Positions 994-8,177 are shown, numbered from the stretch's first letter. The stretch is 8,177 bases of DNA from Candidatus Desantisiibacteriota bacterium (GCA_016209155.1 JACQWU010000069.1:1610-9786), one strand, 5' to 3'. Numbers and translations are program-made. The notes: generated by a model from the letters alone, not told the origin.

Positions 994-1008
994 TCAAAGC
1001 TATATTAA

Positions 1009-1308
1009 TTAAATAATTTTTGGAAGCTCATGACTTCCATGAATAACAAGAACTAAATAAATTACATTCTTATTTATTTTATACACTATTCTGTAATTCT
1101 GATAAATAAGTTCTCTTATATCAGGGTTGCTATATTCAGGAACCAATCTACCTATTTGAGGAAAAGTATTTAACTTTTCAATTGAAAGCAATATTTTTTT
1201 AGCAAAATCACTCGCGTAGTATGGTGAATCATAAGAAATATATTGTATAACATCTTCAAAACTTTTTATCCCATCTTCAGTCCATATAAGTTTTTCTATT
1301 TTATCCAT
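1009..1308 (-). CDS. RelE/ParE-family type II toxin
   Basis: This 99-aa protein has the size and layout of the RelE/ParE toxin fold: two N-terminal helices (about residues 12-46), the FPQIGRLVPE turn (49-58), then the strands IRELIYQNYRIVYKI (64-78) and IYLVLVIHGSHELP (83-96). In this superfamily RelE members cleave mRNA on the ribosome and ParE members poison gyrase; the sequence alone does not decide which. The position often held by Arg in the HGxR motif is His93 here. The ATG at 1306-1308 has AGGA about 8 nt upstream, inside the antitoxin gene, and overlaps the antitoxin end by 13 bp. That gives coupled, antitoxin-first translation typical of such pairs. The ORF is intact, so the module is probably functional. 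Confidence 0.88.
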   Translation of the reverse strand: MDKIEKLIWTEDGIKSFEDVIQYISYDSPYYASDFAKKILLSIEKLNTFPQIGRLVPEYSNPDIRELIYQNYRIVYKINKNVIYLVLVIHGSHELPKII

Positions 1309-1481
1309 TTAGAAATCCTCTTTTTTGCATCTTCGTGACTTATAACTTTTCCTTCCTCGATTTGCCTTAAGCTAGTGTCAACTTTTTGCCTAAAATATAT
1401 TTCTGCCATAATTTCATCATAATCTACTTCATCAGACAATTTTTCAATCATACTTATAACGTCCTGTTTTATATGTGACAT
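1296..1481 (-). CDS. RelB-like antitoxin
   Basis: This is a 61-aa, charged, mostly helical protein placed immediately before and overlapping a RelE/ParE toxin. The region IMAEIYFRQKVDTSLRQIEE (residues 25-44) followed by GKVISHEDAKKRISKWI (45-60) resembles the toxin-wrapping C-terminal half common in RelB/StbD-type antitoxins. An obvious separate DNA-binding domain is not visible, but the N-terminal 20 residues are short enough to form part of a dimeric one. It is expected to neutralise the toxin by direct binding and to repress its own promoter with the toxin as co-repressor. The start at 1479-1481 is supported by a strong AGGAGG (1488-1493) at 6-nt spacing. Family placement rests on length, context and motif style. 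Confidence 0.82.
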   Translation of the reverse strand: MSHIKQDVISMIEKLSDEVDYDEIMAEIYFRQKVDTSLRQIEEGKVISHEDAKKRISKWIK

Positions 1482-1487
1482 AATGAA

Positions 1488-1493
1488 CCTCCT
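1488..1493 (-). promoter_or_regulatory. Strong ribosome binding site of the antitoxin
   Basis: A full AGGAGG lies 6 nt before the antitoxin ATG. It is the best Shine-Dalgarno match in the window and fits the need for antitoxin excess over toxin. Confidence 0.8.
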
Positions 1494-1521
1494 ATCAATT
1501 TACTTATTTTTTTCTGACTTT

Positions 1522-1550
1522 ATTATAACCTATCCTAACAAACTTCTCAA
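1522..1550 (-). promoter_or_regulatory. Sigma-70-type promoter of the toxin-antitoxin pair
   Basis: On the minus strand TTGAGA (1545-1550) and a perfect TATAAT (1522-1527) are separated by exactly 17 nt. The -10 box is about 40 bp upstream of the antitoxin ATG. This gives the pair its own transcription start, independent of the large genes upstream. The spacer contains a TTAGGATAGG stretch that could take part in operator recognition, but no clear inverted repeat is seen. Confidence 0.7.
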
Positions 1551-1571
1551 ATTTTAATCAATTTAAACTAT

Positions 1572-1835
1572 TTAAACCAATACTTGCAAACCAACAGAAA
1601 TAGGCGGGTCGCAATTCCTTGCAATGTCTGCAATTTGCGATTTTAAACTATTGGTTATACTTACCCCTTTTATCTGTCCGGAATCACTCACCCCTACAAA
1701 AATCTTTCCACCTATTGCATTCACAAATGCAATAATCTCTTTTGCAATTGAAGGATTAAATGACTCTTTAAACTCTATTGTCTGCCCTTCACCTTCCTGC
1801 AAAATTATTTGTAAATCCTGATTTGTTAATTTCAT
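1572..1835 (-). pseudogene. Truncated AlbA_2 (Schlafen-type) domain gene, N-terminal stub
   Basis: The 87-aa product opens with the classic start of an AlbA_2 domain: EGQTIEFKESFNPSIAKEI (residues 16-34), FVNAIGGKIFVGVSDSGQIKG (37-57) and a final IARNCDPPISVGLQ (71-84), where it stops abruptly. AlbA_2 domains run well past 100 residues and are usually followed by an ATP-binding/winged-helix part, so about the last quarter of the domain and everything after it are missing. ATG at 1833-1835 is preferred over more upstream starts because those overlap the ATPase gene and would add a low-complexity leader; the ribosome site is only a weak AGAGAA. The stub is co-directional, 40 bp downstream of the ATPase, and may once have been the third gene of that operon. 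AlbA_2 proteins act on nucleic acids; the Schlafen relatives bind or cut tRNA. A functional short protein cannot be excluded. Confidence 0.75.
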
Positions 1836-1875
1836 GTATTTATTCTCTTTTTCTTTTCTATTTTTTCTATTTAAT

Positions 1876-4800
1876 TTACTTATTATACATCTCAATTTCA
1901 GGCCCATTATCACCTATTGACTTAAACTCATAAAATATTGCCCTGTTTTTCATCCTGCTAAACTTCTGCCGCATTAATCTAAATAATCTTTCTTCGCAAG
2001 TAGATATAATAAATTGATGTTTCGATTCGTTATCCAGAATAAGTCCCTTAATAACATCAAGTAGGGAATAAGCATTTAAATCATCAAAATGTGTTACAGG
2101 ATCATCTAAAAGAATTGGGGAAAAAGATGACCAGGTTTGAGTTAAGGTTGCGGTCAAAAAAAGGCTTAACATAACTATCTGAATTTGAGATTCACTAAAA
2201 TAATCACTTGGAAATAGTTTTTTACTTGCTTCTCTTTCTACATGAACTAAAATACCACCTTTATCTGTTGATAGCTCTATATTTCCAAAACCATACACTG
2301 ACCTAAGCCTTTTTTGAATAATTGATGTTAATGGGCCATATTTATGCGTGTATTCTTTTAATGATTTATTTTGAACAGCTTGGAGTTCCTTGTTAATACG
2401 ATTTACATATAATAACCATTCTTCTATAGATTTTTTTTCTAACTTTAATTTTTCAAGTTGTTTTTCTCTTTCTTTTATTTCAGTTTCACTTTTTTTGATT
2501 GCGACAGATTTTTGCATGGAATCTAATGCAAATTGAAAATTAGTAATTTCATTTTGCAATACTTCCAAACGAGCTAATTTTTTATTTAATTTTTTCTTTT
2601 TATTTTGTATTTGCTCTATATCCGTTGTAATATTAAATTTGAAATATTTAAATAACTTTTCAACTTCGTTTATACAATTTGAATATTCAACAATTTTTCC
2701 ATTTATTTCCAAAATTTCTTTTTCTAAAACTTTTTTCCTCTCCAGTGAACTATCAATTTGTTTTTGTAAGTTCTGAGATTTAAATTGAGCGGATTCTAAT
2801 TGTTCTTTTAAATTGTTTATATCATTGACTGTTTTATTAAGTGTTTCATGAACGGATGAATTTTCAATCTCTAGTGAAACCTGACGTTCCAATGCATCGT
2901 TCTTTATATTATTTAATTTTAAATGCAGTTCCTTAATCTTTAATTTAGTTGTTGATAACTTCTGTTCAAACTCCTTTTTATTACCGATATACATTAAAGA
3001 ATTATTAAATTGTTCATCTTTAAAAACTTGCTGTTTTGACAACTCTTTTTGAATCAAATTTATTGAGTTTTCAATTTCTATTTTTTTCGAAAAAATTATT
3101 GCTGTTAAATTCTTTAGTATAACTGGTAAATTGAGGGAAGTTGCTAAATGCTCATATATTTTAAGCTTTTCTTTAGTATCAGAAAGTTCTTTTTTAAATT
3201 TGATATAATTCTCCTCTAAATTTTTGAGTTTTGAATTCATGCTATCAACTTGCTCTTTCATTTTTTTATGTTTAGATTCCATTTCATTAAATTCTTTAAG
3301 AACTATTTCTGTTTCTTTAGGCCTAACGCCTCTTTGCAATTTTAATTTTTCAATTAATTCTTGTTGAGATTTATGTGAAGTTCCGCATACCGGACAAATT
3401 TCATTTGATATATGTTTTTCTATACTATCAAGCAATCCTTGAAGCTCTGTCCCATTTTTTTGCAAGTTTTTAATGAATGTTCTCAGTTTTTCAATATTTA
3501 TATATTTGGCTTTTAAACTGTCTTCTTGAATTGGTATTATTTTCTTTAAATCAAAAATTTGAATTTCTAATTCATGTATATTTTTTTCTATCTCAATTAT
3601 TCGATTTAGTTTTTCATTCCAGTCATTTAAATTTTCCATCAAGGAAATAATCTTATTTAAATTATCTTCTTGCATTTTTTTATCTAGGATAATTTTATTT
3701 ATGCTATCTTGTTTTATTTCAATCTCAGAATTAGTTTTTGTTATATCAGTTTGTAAAATTATTAATTGTTTTTGTATTTCTTGAAAATTTTTTATTTCCT
3801 GATCAATTTGCACCTTAAACAAATCATATTGAGCTTTATTATTTGCAATCCAATCAAAATTTTCTTTTATTTTATTAAAATGTTTTTCTTCCAACAACAA
3901 CTTTTGATGGCTTTCTGTTATTAACACCAATTCTTTTTTATTTTTAATATATTCTTCTTCATTTTTTTCAATCAACTCTTTCCGTTGCTTTAATCCAATT
4001 TTTTTCTCATTAACTTTTTCTGTACAAATAATAAATTTTGGGAATTCAGTTTCTATCTCTTCAATTTTTTTTATATCAAAAGATACATCCCCTTTAGCAA
4101 TTATAACCTCTGCATCCAAGCCACGAACTATTTTTTCCGAAAATTCTTTTGGGGGTTCTATCGAAATTTTAATTTCATGTGATATTTTATCAAACATCTG
4201 TTTCCCAAGTTCAAGGACAGCATCAGGTCTCTCGAAATGTTTCAACTGTTGAGTCAATTGTTTAATTTCTTCTTCTTTAGAGGCTTGTAAATCTTTTAAT
4301 TTAACAATATCTTGTCCCTTTGCATTAACTTGTCTTTCCAATACTTCTGAAACTTTTTTTGTTTTATTAATTCCTTCAACATAATCTTGAAATGCAAGCA
4401 TTCGAGAAACAACATCCTCTGGTAACGTTGAATCGTCTTTAATTTGTGAAGTTAATGATTGATATTCTTGCCCAAAGATATGTATCGATCTAAATAAATT
4501 AACTAAATTTTCGATTCTCATATCATGTGATTCTTCTTCAACTCCTGTTAATTTTTTTAAAAAATCAATTCTATTAATAAAATTTTCAGTGGAATTAACA
4601 TTCATTCTATTATTTACATATCTTTCAAAAGTACTATTTTGATTATTTTCAGATATTGTCATCTTAACAAACGATTCTTTTTCAGAGGAATCTAAATGTT
4701 TTAAAATACTTTCTAATTTATTCTTACGTTTATCGAATCTGGTTACACCACCAGTACACATAAAATCTATAGCATCAAAAAATGATGTTTTACCTAAACC

Positions 4801-5511
4801 ATTTGAACCATATAAAACTACTAAATCCGCATCAAGATCGAATTTTTGATTTTTATATGCGCGAAAATTAGATATCTCCAGTTCTTTTATGCGAACATTT
4901 ATTTTACTTTCAAATTGTGAAGAATTTAAATATCCTGTTTCTGATTCAAACCAATTTGGAGTTTCAAACTTTCCTTTTAAACTTTCTTCAATAATTTTTT
5001 CAATACCTTTAAAATGCGGTACCGCAAAACTTTTTGCAAGTTCTGTTTTAACTCCATGCTTCATTAAAAATGTTTGAGCGCTAAGAGGTCTCTTTAATCC
5101 AATATTTTCAGGACGTAATGGAATAAAAGGAAGGTGCTCTAATTCGTCTTCAATCTTATTATTCCCATTAATAATAAATTTACGGCAGAAATAAGGATTA
5201 ATTTCTACTTCATTAAAAAAATTATCAAAGCTTTTATTTTTATCCATTCTACAAAGAACTAAATTAAGATCAAAATCAGCCCAATCCTTTGAACGAATCG
5301 TGTATAGTTCTTTTAACTTTTGAAATGCTGAATTATAATCTTTTTGAGGATTCTCATATAAAGATGCAAAAGCAATCAAATAGGGTTTTATATCCATTAA
5401 AAGAAAAAGTGGTAAAAAATCGCTGGAAGGGGATTCCATCTTAAGATGTGTATCGTTAAAAATATTAGTTAAAGCTTCTTTAAGTTTTACATCATTATAA
5501 GTTGGATTCAT
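1876..5511 (-). CDS. SMC/Rad50-like ABC ATPase with zinc-hook motif and N-terminal extension
   Basis: This 1211-aa protein is a split ABC ATPase with a long coiled coil. Domains in order: a ~195-aa N-terminal extension of unknown family; an ABC N-lobe (about 205-360) beginning IKELEISNFRAYKNQKF, with Walker A GSNGLGKT at 235-242 and a Q-loop-like GQEYQ (Gln348); coiled coil to about 700; a CPVCG hook-like motif at 706-710; returning coiled coil to about 1060; and an ABC C-lobe with the signature-like FSESQIQ (1105-1111), Walker B LLDDP (1134-1138), D-loop THFDDLN (1140-1146) and FIISTCEE (1167-1174) where the H-loop His is expected. CPVCG lies almost exactly midway between the Walker motifs, as the Rad50 hook does. 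Such ATPases form dimers that bind or tether DNA. The start ATG overlaps the stop of the nitrilase gene (ATGA), with AAGGA 11 nt upstream, so the two are translationally coupled. The gene is very AT-rich. It resembles the SMC subunit of Lamassu-like or other ABC-ATPase conflict systems; this is inference from architecture, not a match. Confidence 0.92.
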   Translation of the reverse strand: MNPTYNDVKLKEALTNIFNDTHLKMESPSSDFLPLFLLMDIKPYLIAFASLYENPQKDYNSAFQKLKELYTIRSKDWADFDLNLVLCRMDKNKSFDNFFNEVEINPYFCRKFIINGNNKIEDELEHLPFIPLRPENIGLKRPLSAQTFLMKHGVKTELAKSFAVPHFKGIEKIIEESLKGKFETPNWFESETGYLNSSQFESKINVRIKELEISNFRAYKNQKFDLDADLVVLYGSNGLGKTSFFDAIDFMCTGGVTRFDKRKNKLESILKHLDSSEKESFVKMTISENNQNSTFERYVNNRMNVNSTENFINRIDFLKKLTGVEEESHDMRIENLVNLFRSIHIFGQEYQSLTSQIKDDSTLPEDVVSRMLAFQDYVEGINKTKKVSEVLERQVNAKGQDIVKLKDLQASKEEEIKQLTQQLKHFERPDAVLELGKQMFDKISHEIKISIEPPKEFSEKIVRGLDAEVIIAKGDVSFDIKKIEEIETEFPKFIICTEKVNEKKIGLKQRKELIEKNEEEYIKNKKELVLITESHQKLLLEEKHFNKIKENFDWIANNKAQYDLFKVQIDQEIKNFQEIQKQLIILQTDITKTNSEIEIKQDSINKIILDKKMQEDNLNKIISLMENLNDWNEKLNRIIEIEKNIHELEIQIFDLKKIIPIQEDSLKAKYINIEKLRTFIKNLQKNGTELQGLLDSIEKHISNEICPVCGTSHKSQQELIEKLKLQRGVRPKETEIVLKEFNEMESKHKKMKEQVDSMNSKLKNLEENYIKFKKELSDTKEKLKIYEHLATSLNLPVILKNLTAIIFSKKIEIENSINLIQKELSKQQVFKDEQFNNSLMYIGNKKEFEQKLSTTKLKIKELHLKLNNIKNDALERQVSLEIENSSVHETLNKTVNDINNLKEQLESAQFKSQNLQKQIDSSLERKKVLEKEILEINGKIVEYSNCINEVEKLFKYFKFNITTDIEQIQNKKKKLNKKLARLEVLQNEITNFQFALDSMQKSVAIKKSETEIKEREKQLEKLKLEKKSIEEWLLYVNRINKELQAVQNKSLKEYTHKYGPLTSIIQKRLRSVYGFGNIELSTDKGGILVHVEREASKKLFPSDYFSESQIQIVMLSLFLTATLTQTWSSFSPILLDDPVTHFDDLNAYSLLDVIKGLILDNESKHQFIISTCEERLFRLMRQKFSRMKNRAIFYEFKSIGDNGPEIEMYNK

Positions 5512-7292
5512 ATTTTCAAAATTCCTTTCAGCTCATTACTTAATTCATTTATATCCTGGGCTTTAATATATTGATCACGTAATTCATGGTAACTGCAATG
5601 CAAATAATTATTTTGTGGATTTGTTATGTTCGTATCTTTATTATTGTCATCAACATCATAAATTGATTTAACTGTTCTACTAACATATATATCGTTATTC
5701 TGATCCCGAGTAATTAAAACTAAAAATCTTTGTCCACTTCCCGGATAATGTTTCTTTATATATTGAATACAATTGTCATGTTTATTTCCGGATATAACAA
5801 TAATATCAAAAACATTATTATTATTTTTCATAGTTCCATGTGTATGGTTATTTCCTATATCTACTGGAAAACAAGCTCCAATAATACAAAGAGAGTCAAT
5901 AATAGTTTTTAGACTTAATTCTTCCTGTTCATCCCAAACATCTACAATTTTTTCTTTTGGATCATCTTCTTTACATATACTTCTCGATATAAAATTAGTT
6001 AAAAACTTTCCATCTTTATTTCTAATTTCTTTTGATATTGATTCATATGTTTGATCAATATTATTGTATAGTAGATATTCATCTTGATTACACAAGAAAC
6101 ATGATTTTTCATCCAATTTATCATTTATCCACTTTATAGATGCTGGAACAGGCTTGCCTGAGACTCTTGGATCATCATGATTATTATCTATCGGATATAC
6201 AATAGCTGTTTCTATCGGCTGTTTTCTACCTGATGGATCTCTATTAAGAAAAATACGAGGGATAAATTTAAAAGAATGGATACATGCTCCTGCTTCTCTG
6301 AATAAAGCGTCCTGGCAGTTCCCAAGAGAATCAGTATCTCTAATTTTTTTTGTTGTTAAAGCAAAAGTTGGAGGACAAGCATTATCAATAGGATAAGCAT
6401 TATTTGGAAATACCAATGAACTATTACCATGATTTTCACATTTACCTGGTTTATTATTCCCAGCAGTATTAGCGAAAAAAATCGTTCCATTTTCCCTAAT
6501 AATAGCCGGGTTATTAGATGTATTAGAAAATAAATTTCGAGCATTCTCAAGGAAACTAATGTGATTTGGTTTTTCATTACACTGAATAACAAAAAACATA
6601 TGCAGTTCTCTTCTATTAAATTCTGTATTTATCCAAGAATCGTTAATTTTATTTAAGACATAATCTATTCCACTTTTTTGATCAAATTGAGCAATCCAAT
6701 CAAAACATATCAAAAATAAAAATCTACAAACAATTCCATTGCTAAATTTTGCAGAAAATAAATAAATCATGTCCCCTGTGAACATTTTATTGTAAGAAAT
6801 ATTTTGTTCTGGCCATGCAGCACTTAATTTTGGTTGAAGCCAGCATTTTAATGCACCATCTTCTTGTTTAGCCCAAAGCATACCGCAATTAATCCATTGG
6901 CCGTCAGGAATTGTAGTTGGGTCAATTCCAATAGTATCTTCATTATTGCAAAGAGTGGCATATTCATTTTTTGTTAAACCATCAACTCCACCAATAACTA
7001 TAGTTCCATTCTGCCATGAATTATCTAAAAGAAAATTTTGTATATTTTGAACAACATCTAATCCAGGAATTGAATATTCCGGAAATATTGTGAAATGAGT
7101 TTTTGGACACCCGTGTTCAGCTTTTTTGGCAATCTCTAAAGTTCTTATTATTCTCTCTATCTGCTTACTTTTTTTATCTGGCTGCCAATGATAAGGTTCG
7201 CTTGAAGACAACTCCACATAAGGTTGCATAAATACCATACCAATTTCATTATCAGGTAAAATTATATTTATTGGAATCTCTTTAATATTCAT
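5508..7292 (-). CDS. Nitrilase-superfamily (carbon-nitrogen hydrolase) protein with C-terminal module
   Basis: This 594-aa protein has the nitrilase fold in roughly residues 1-365. The catalytic triad is visible and in normal order: Glu72 in FTIFPEYS, Lys155 in WLQPKLS and Cys196 in FLICFDW. Further family marks follow: NARNLF (249-254), FFANTAG (272-278) and GNSSLVFP (289-296), matching the usual alanine/asparagine and G-x-S positions. Members hydrolyse or transfer C-N bonds of amides and nitriles; the substrate is unknown. Residues about 395-594 form a second module of unknown family with a CxxC at 398-401, additional Cys/His, and an alpha/beta pattern including FDIIVISG (495-502) and QRFLVLITRD (521-530). 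A usual nitrilase is 260-350 aa, so the tail is an addition. ATG at 7290-7292 is chosen because AGGTG lies 4 nt upstream; a TTG ten codons earlier lacks such a site. No signal peptide is seen. Coupling to an SMC-like ATPase suggests a conflict-system effector rather than a metabolic amidase; this is inference. Confidence 0.88.
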   Translation of the reverse strand: MNIKEIPINIILPDNEIGMVFMQPYVELSSSEPYHWQPDKKSKQIERIIRTLEIAKKAEHGCPKTHFTIFPEYSIPGLDVVQNIQNFLLDNSWQNGTIVIGGVDGLTKNEYATLCNNEDTIGIDPTTIPDGQWINCGMLWAKQEDGALKCWLQPKLSAAWPEQNISYNKMFTGDMIYLFSAKFSNGIVCRFLFLICFDWIAQFDQKSGIDYVLNKINDSWINTEFNRRELHMFFVIQCNEKPNHISFLENARNLFSNTSNNPAIIRENGTIFFANTAGNNKPGKCENHGNSSLVFPNNAYPIDNACPPTFALTTKKIRDTDSLGNCQDALFREAGACIHSFKFIPRIFLNRDPSGRKQPIETAIVYPIDNNHDDPRVSGKPVPASIKWINDKLDEKSCFLCNQDEYLLYNNIDQTYESISKEIRNKDGKFLTNFISRSICKEDDPKEKIVDVWDEQEELSLKTIIDSLCIIGACFPVDIGNNHTHGTMKNNNNVFDIIVISGNKHDNCIQYIKKHYPGSGQRFLVLITRDQNNDIYVSRTVKSIYDVDDNNKDTNITNPQNNYLHCSYHELRDQYIKAQDINELSNELKGILKI

Positions 7293-7301: not shown

Positions 7302-7373
7302 ACCATTTTTTTTGTTAAACAAATTGACAATATTGAATAAATATAAAATAATCTACTAAAAAATCCTTAATTT

Positions 7374-8177
7374 TTATATTGGATAGTTTCCAAGTAAAAT
7401 CCTTTCTTTAGTTCTTTTGCAAATTTTTTCAAGAGCAATAAAAGCTTCATCTATTTTTTTCGTATTTAATACTTCTAATAATGGCTCAATTGTTCTTTTA
7501 TCTCCTATTTCTCCAAGTGAATATGCTATTCCCCGCTTAATCGAATCATTGGAGCTGGTACATAATATTAATAAGAGAGTAGAAATATCTTTTTCATTAC
7601 CAAGCTTCCCAAGTACAAATGCCACTTGTGAACGAATACCAATATGTTCTTCCCCATTAGCTATAATTTTCAATAGTGTAGGCATAGCTTTATAATCATT
7701 TATTTTTGAAAGCGCAATTATTGCATTTTCTCGAATAAAAGGATCTATATTATCATCATTAGTAAAAATTTTTATTAAAGGCTCAAGAGCCCTCTCATCA
7801 CCAATTTTTCCTAAAGCAATTGCAGCATCCTTCTGAATTGAGTAATCTTCATCACTATTTAAAACTTTTATTAGTGGCTCAGCAGCTCTTTTATCCCCAA
7901 TTTCACCAAGTAAATGCAATATTTTCCAGCGTAAAAACGAATCCACTTTTTTATTAATTAAAATATATAAAAGTGAGTCAACAACTCTTGAATTTTTAAT
8001 TTCACTAATTACAGTTGCAGCATAATGGAGATCAATTTTACTTTCTTCATCATTTGTCAGGACTTTAATTAAAAAATCAATAGCTTTTTCTTCACCTTTT
8101 TTACAAAGTGCAATTGCCGTATAACTTAAAACAAAAATACTTTCTTTACTATTGTCAAAAATTTTCAAAAGTGGTTC
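7374..8177 (-). CDS. HEAT-repeat protein (C-terminal part, runs off right edge)
   Basis: The visible 267 residues are almost entirely HEAT/PBS-lyase-type helical repeats of about 33-36 residues, roughly seven units. Clear copies carry the unit core D-x-R-A-x-x-P-L-I-x-x-L followed by A-x-x-A-L-x-x-I-G: KRAAEPLIKVL, ERALEPLIKIF, YKAMPTLLKII, KRTIEPLLEVL, with IALGKIGD, IALSKIND and YSLGEIGD closing the units. The reading frame is open to the window edge (first residues EPLLKIFD), so no start is visible and an N-terminal domain may lie outside. HEAT arrays are protein-protein scaffolds; enzymatic function cannot be inferred. The last 20 residues (ICKRTKERILLGNYPI) are basic. It precedes the nitrilase gene by 81 bp on the same strand, so it may be co-transcribed, but it need not belong to the same system. 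Confidence 0.88.
   Translation of the reverse strand, partial: EPLLKIFDNSKESIFVLSYTAIALCKKGEEKAIDFLIKVLTNDEESKIDLHYAATVISEIKNSRVVDSLLYILINKKVDSFLRWKILHLLGEIGDKRAAEPLIKVLNSDEDYSIQKDAAIALGKIGDERALEPLIKIFTNDDNIDPFIRENAIIALSKINDYKAMPTLLKIIANGEEHIGIRSQVAFVLGKLGNEKDISTLLLILCTSSNDSIKRGIAYSLGEIGDKRTIEPLLEVLNTKKIDEAFIALEKICKRTKERILLGNYPI

Follow-up and report, generated by a model that had tools for sequence, protein, structure and literature searches.

The window analyzed here comprises 8,177 nucleotides of a 10.6 kb contig (L006) in a Candidatus Desantisiibacteriota genome (352 contigs, 78.8% complete), a phylum represented by four genomes. Two genes with intact reading frames lie on its minus strand: a 594-aa nitrilase-fold protein (LmuA, positions 7292-5508) and a 1211-aa SMC/Rad50-like ATPase (LmuB, 5511-1876). 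LmuA runs from an ATG at 7292, served by an AGGTG-like ribosome site that is better than that of an alternative TTG start at 7322, to a stop at 5508; LmuB runs from an ATG at 5511 to a stop at 1876. The stop and start codons overlap at 5508-5511, where the junction reads AAAATATGAATCC, that is, ATGA, and the two genes overlap or abut in 26 of 26 relatives when longest-ORF starts are used. Frames and junction are as an earlier sequence-only reading described them, and translational coupling of the nitrilase to the ATPase is supported.

Identity and genomic setting of the gene pair

Both proteins match dedicated PADLOC models end to end. LmuA matches PDLC03850 (LmuA) with 537 bits and an E value of 1.1e-161 over residues 2-591 of 594, and LmuB matches PDLC03861 (LmuB) with 809 bits and an E value of 2.3e-243 over residues 9-1209 of 1211. 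Because of these matches the pair is, by profile assignment, a two-gene Lamassu/ABC-three-component system whose effector is a nitrilase (C-N hydrolase). The same search bears out the earlier proposal of a Lamassu- or ABC-three-component-like plan with an exchangeable enzyme as effector. Pfam recognizes only the AAA_23/SMC_N head of the ATPase (AAA_23, E 1e-17) and finds no match in the nitrilase. Full-length matches to defense models at 1e-161 and 2e-243, together with the retention of the gene pair across phyla, place the identification far beyond chance.

The system defined by these two PADLOC models corresponds to the one named Lamassu-Amidase in DefenseFinder, a name not found in our literature search. 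The suggestion that a nitrilase newly takes the amidase role at this locus does not stand, since the family is already catalogued as LmuA (PDLC03850) and a 2023 review already lists a C-N hydrolase effector (PMC10586767). The locus is a clean example of an already catalogued system from a poorly sampled phylum, and the kind of system is not new. It resembles Lamassu with a C-N hydrolase or amidase effector in the whole-length matches of both proteins, the order of effector and SMC-like ATPase, the two-gene layout, and the intact nitrilase active site. It differs in sequence alone, with an LmuA that is about 29-42% identical to the main-group LmuA relatives found.

Just upstream of the pair and on the same strand (window 7374-8177, contig 8983-10584) is the end of a longer HEAT-repeat protein, the N-terminal side of which is cut by the contig end. 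This N-terminal side contains FLHLSFQEYFTSLELKE, which resembles sequence that follows a NACHT/STAND NTPase; the piece matched nothing in Pfam. An apparently truncated Schlafen AlbA_2 gene directly downstream of LmuB (window 1572-1835) covers the first 75 of 118 profile positions and ends in a stop. Farther along is a ParE-type toxin gene (window 1009-1481, Pfam E 5e-14), with an overlapping 61-aa ORF before it that is probably the antitoxin. A cyclic-nucleotide-binding protein and a GAF/sigma-54 activator are encoded at the other end of the contig (window 1-475 and contig 1-1584), where GC content rises from about 0.27 to 0.41; the defense genes look AT-richer than their surroundings. The HEAT-repeat end, the AlbA_2 fragment, and the ParE pair around the two genes are suggestive of a conflict-gene cluster. 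A PADLOC survey (E 1e-15) of the flanks of 12 relatives against distant control stretches gave 98 ORFs and 113 models versus 110 ORFs and 37 models, counts in which the models are redundant and from which gene-level enrichment cannot be read.

Domain anatomy of LmuA and LmuB

LmuA (5508-7292) consists of a nitrilase-superfamily (C-N hydrolase) domain (residues ~1-360) and a C-terminal module (~372-594), as indicated by its PADLOC match, an AlphaFold2 model, and fold comparison. In the model, built from a 27-row alignment (pLDDT 89.1, pTM 0.90), residues 12-353 adopt a nitrilase fold, with a Foldseek match to aliphatic amidase at E 2.3e-7. The Glu72-Lys155-Cys196 triad proposed in the sequence-only reading is found where it was placed and is invariant in the alignment of 27 nitrilases: Glu72 in an FPE motif (codon 7077-7079), Lys155 in QPKLS (6828-6830), and the nucleophile Cys196 in LICFD (6705-6707). 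Glu162 (codon 6807-6809), which probably represents the second glutamate of the superfamily active site, is likewise present in 27/27, and P71, N135, Q153, D198, and others are also invariant.

Pfam, searched at E 0.01, gives no family for any of the 27 LmuA members. This includes its C-N hydrolase model, which marks ordinary superfamily members but does not define the fold, so this family is, as judged from profiles, a divergent branch of the nitrilase superfamily. With PADLOC all 27 match LmuA, and their other matches are solely to defense-associated reverse transcriptase-nitrilases; two members match RT_UG5-nitrilase (best E 4e-7). Such reverse transcriptases (DRT; UG1 and UG5) share with this locus a nitrilase domain in a defense setting, but neither protein here contains a reverse transcriptase domain. 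As far as this comparison goes, the lack of a Pfam C-N hydrolase match and the matches to defense nitrilases argue against a clustering of LmuA with metabolic amidases, an outcome that would have counted against the sequence-only reading.

The best structural match of LmuA in VIA-align is the amidase domain of glutamine-dependent NAD synthetase (Z 18.5, rmsd 3.6, 233 residues aligned); Nit2, N-terminal amidase, formamidase, and Lnt score no more than about 1.5 Z lower. Over the nitrilase-fold matches as a whole, Z ranges from about 17 to 18.5 and rmsd from 3.0 to 5.0, with 219-263 residues aligned. Because of these near-ties between such different enzymes, the substrate is not readable from structure. 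A search of solved chains with the LmuA profile gave no match, no solved structure was found for this branch, and our searches returned no known substrate for nitrilase-type LmuA. One alternative is that the Lamassu nitrilase acts on a protein or an acyl group, which it would modify or cleave like N-terminal amidase or Lnt, and so marks or signals instead of starving the cell. In its favor, the active site is intact, and NTA1 and apolipoprotein acyltransferase Lnt tie structurally with small-molecule amidases (Z 17-18), but this ranking cannot separate substrates, and we regard such a role as rather improbable.

The extra module of about 200 residues that was noticed in the nitrilase does fold as a separate domain in the AlphaFold2 model (residues 372-594, 5508-6179, pLDDT 83.0). 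Seven of its residues (D451, W453, H505, R529, D530, T557, and P559) show full or near-full conservation. VIA-align returned mostly restriction-endonuclease-like folds at Z 4-6, including the LmuA nuclease entries 9hr5 and 9nxx, and the best value of 5.9 is at a level that may reflect merely a common arrangement and is too weak to name a fold. Foldseek gave no match to the module below E 0.17, Pfam gave none, and a survey of alignment columns revealed no conserved (D/E)xK nuclease motif in it. The module is probably a docking or oligomerization domain.

The observation that no separate third subunit gene lies between the two genes is literally true, but the subunit, which some Lamassu systems lack, is not absent. 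Residues 1-193 of LmuB (4933-5511), scanned alone, match Middle Component 1 (PF20289, MComp1; LmuC-like) at E 2.3e-5 with 24.5 bits, just under the Pfam gathering score of 27.3, and PF20289 is also matched at E<=1e-3 in 19 of 26 LmuB family members. Because of these matches we assign the N-terminus of the ATPase, on its profile similarity, as a fused third subunit (middle component). The Walker A motif GSNGLGKTS follows at residues 235-243 (4783-4809), with G235, N237, G238, G240, K241, T242, and S243 invariant in 26/26. The zinc hook CPxCG seen in many Lamassu LmuB proteins is present as CPVCG at residues 706-710 (3382-3396), and C706, C709, and G710 (CxxCG) are invariant in 26/26. In the Walker B region, DDPV at residues 1136-1139 (2095-2106), the catalytic-Glu position is Asp in 26/26, a count that is partly circular since DDPV was in the search pattern and part of the sample was thereby selected on the motif. 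A search of solved structures with the LmuB profile was swamped by coiled coils, and two fragments of the LmuB head matched Rad50/SMC and no Lamassu LmuB entry.

A partner enzyme alongside a long SMC-like ATPase would also be compatible with a Wadjet-like system acting on plasmids. Wadjet consists of kleisin, KITE, and SMC proteins with a Toprim subunit (PMC10586767), but of this set the window shows the SMC-like protein only; the 10.6 kb contig has no kleisin, KITE, or Toprim ORF next to the two genes, and the profile matched by the ATPase is that of LmuB and not one for Wadjet. A Wadjet assignment is therefore extremely improbable, and the two-gene Lamassu assignment is the one we follow.

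In its plan this Lamassu pair resembles the ABC-three-component system on plasmid NZ_CP011829.1 of Enterococcus faecium, which has an effector, a Middle Component 1, and an AAA_23/SMC-like ATPase. There, effector and ATPase genes flank a distinct gene for the middle component, which in the present pair forms part of the ATPase, and the plasmid effector is a trypsin-like peptidase with CTD4 instead of a nitrilase. The E. faecium set (locus L004, positions 1007-6277, on a conjugative plasmid) includes an MBL-fold hydrolase, the trypsin-CTD4 effector, the separate Middle Component 1, and the ATPase, and resembles the nuclease-protease pair of PMC12799240 in an ABC-three-component setting. The Lamassu systems of Vibrio and Salmonella (DdmABC) share an SMC-like LmuB as likely sensor and an exchangeable effector, but have a nuclease LmuA, a separate LmuC, and an LmuB of about 650 aa compared with 1211 here. 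The Walker B catalytic Glu is replaced by Gln in Vibrio Lamassu and by Asp here.

Relatives, pairing, and co-divergence

Scanning genomes with LmuA as the sole query gave no hits, for which a lack of conservation in the single-sequence patterns is the probable reason. When 193 diverse genomes were searched starting from LmuA, only one other genome was recovered, a member of candidate division KSB1 (another phylum, as identified by the matching contig). The architecture in this genome is the same, a 595-aa nitrilase overlapping a fused ATPase of 1191 aa whose hook reads CPCCG, and since the locus was found by LmuA it is independent of any choice by ATPase. The separate middle-component gene apparent in G004 was an artifact of truncation of the locus, as a longer piece of sequence encodes a fused 1191-aa ATPase.

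Searching 84,980 species genomes with patterns from the C-terminus of the ATPase yielded 36 related ATPase loci in Omnitrophota, Acidobacteria, Nitrospira, many Betaproteobacteria, Bradyrhizobium, Lentisphaerae, Planctomycetes, Aerophobetes, and one Asgard archaeon. Wherever the 5' side of the locus is undisrupted (26 loci), a nitrilase gene is directly upstream of the ATPase. The sequence-only reading had held that rare adjacency of the homologues would count against it; they are paired across phyla. The 36 loci were chosen by their ATPase and say nothing about other effectors with more distant LmuB proteins of this branch. Six of the other 10 loci are cut by or start at a contig edge (L007, L008, L012, L014, L040, and L041), and four are remnant or disrupted (L032, L034, L036, and L037), with L037 adjoining an apparent IS66-type transposase. 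Examination of 24 complete sets of genome contigs showed a single full-length LmuA in 21, in every case the copy paired with the ATPase; of the other three genomes, one carries a remnant and two carry no LmuA. No LmuA relatives were detected in plasmid and phage collections (tblastn, E 1e-5) or in scans of viral contigs.

Pairwise distances of LmuA and LmuB are correlated with r 0.98, a value reached in none of 2000 permutations (maximum 0.59). The two proteins diverged together, as would be expected if they are partners that move as a unit, and host ancestry may contribute. LmuB copies at L019, L032, L034, L036, and L037 are apparently frameshifted, truncated, or disrupted by a transposase, so the system seems to decay readily; the genomes of L032, L034, and L036 contain no intact nitrilase. 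Over the last 90 residues at the C-terminus, the LmuB of an Asgard archaeon MAG (Candidatus Sifarchaeum, L007) is the closest (80%), which hints at transfer between domains or at a binning error; its contig is only 3.4 kb long.

This distribution also bears on whether the locus could be a housekeeping operon, with a metabolic nitrilase or amidase by chance beside an SMC/Rad50-type DNA-repair ATPase. The LmuA fold does resemble those of metabolic amidases and formamidases, and by sequence the ATPase head is nearest Rad50/SMC among solved structures. However, 0/27 members match Pfam while 27/27 match the defense model, the family is sparse (2/193 and 1/386 diverse genomes) and scattered over phyla, and the ATPase is fused to a conflict-system middle component, is always paired, and has decayed copies in some genomes. 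A housekeeping role is thus very unlikely.

A putative sequestration and release mechanism

The detailed mechanism of Lamassu has been worked out for nuclease effectors, in systems where LmuC is a separate protein and LmuB, at ~650 aa, is much shorter. The pair described here may therefore differ in how the effector is sequestered and released. Lamassu occurs in about 10% of genomes; all share LmuB as the likely sensor with diverse effectors, including a C-N hydrolase, and these effectors harm the cell, presumably through abortive infection (PMC10586767). Hairpin and DNA-end sensing are listed for Lamassu (PMC12904381), and Lamassu effectors are activated by oligomerization when infection is sensed (PMC12799240). 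PDB entry 9hr5 is a tetramer of a Lamassu LmuA nuclease on DNA.

By analogy with these systems, LmuB with its fused middle component, together with the C-terminal module of the effector, would hold the nitrilase in an inactive complex. The Rad50-like LmuB dimer, with ATP-binding heads, a long coiled coil, and a zinc hook, would meet abnormal DNA such as invader ends or hairpins, upon which LmuA would be released, oligomerize, and become an active amidase. Functional nitrilases have an underlying dimer (PMC4700190), and release followed by oligomerization would therefore be a natural switch for LmuA. Active LmuA might then hydrolyze an essential cellular amide (a metabolite, a cofactor, or a protein end) and so stop the infected cell before the phage spreads, in line with the DNA sensing and hydrolysis suggested earlier. 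We consider it likely that the locus encodes a two-gene Lamassu (ABC-three-component) anti-phage or anti-plasmid system of the nitrilase effector type that operates in this way.

More tentatively, fusion of the middle component could force one middle subunit per ATPase and give a resting stoichiometry unlike that of three-gene Lamassu, and the released nitrilase could deplete one specific cellular amide; we consider this combined reading doubtful. To our knowledge, such chemistry has no report for a Lamassu effector. The 27 aligned effectors, with their invariant active site and compact two-gene layout, provide a ready panel for finding what LmuA cuts.
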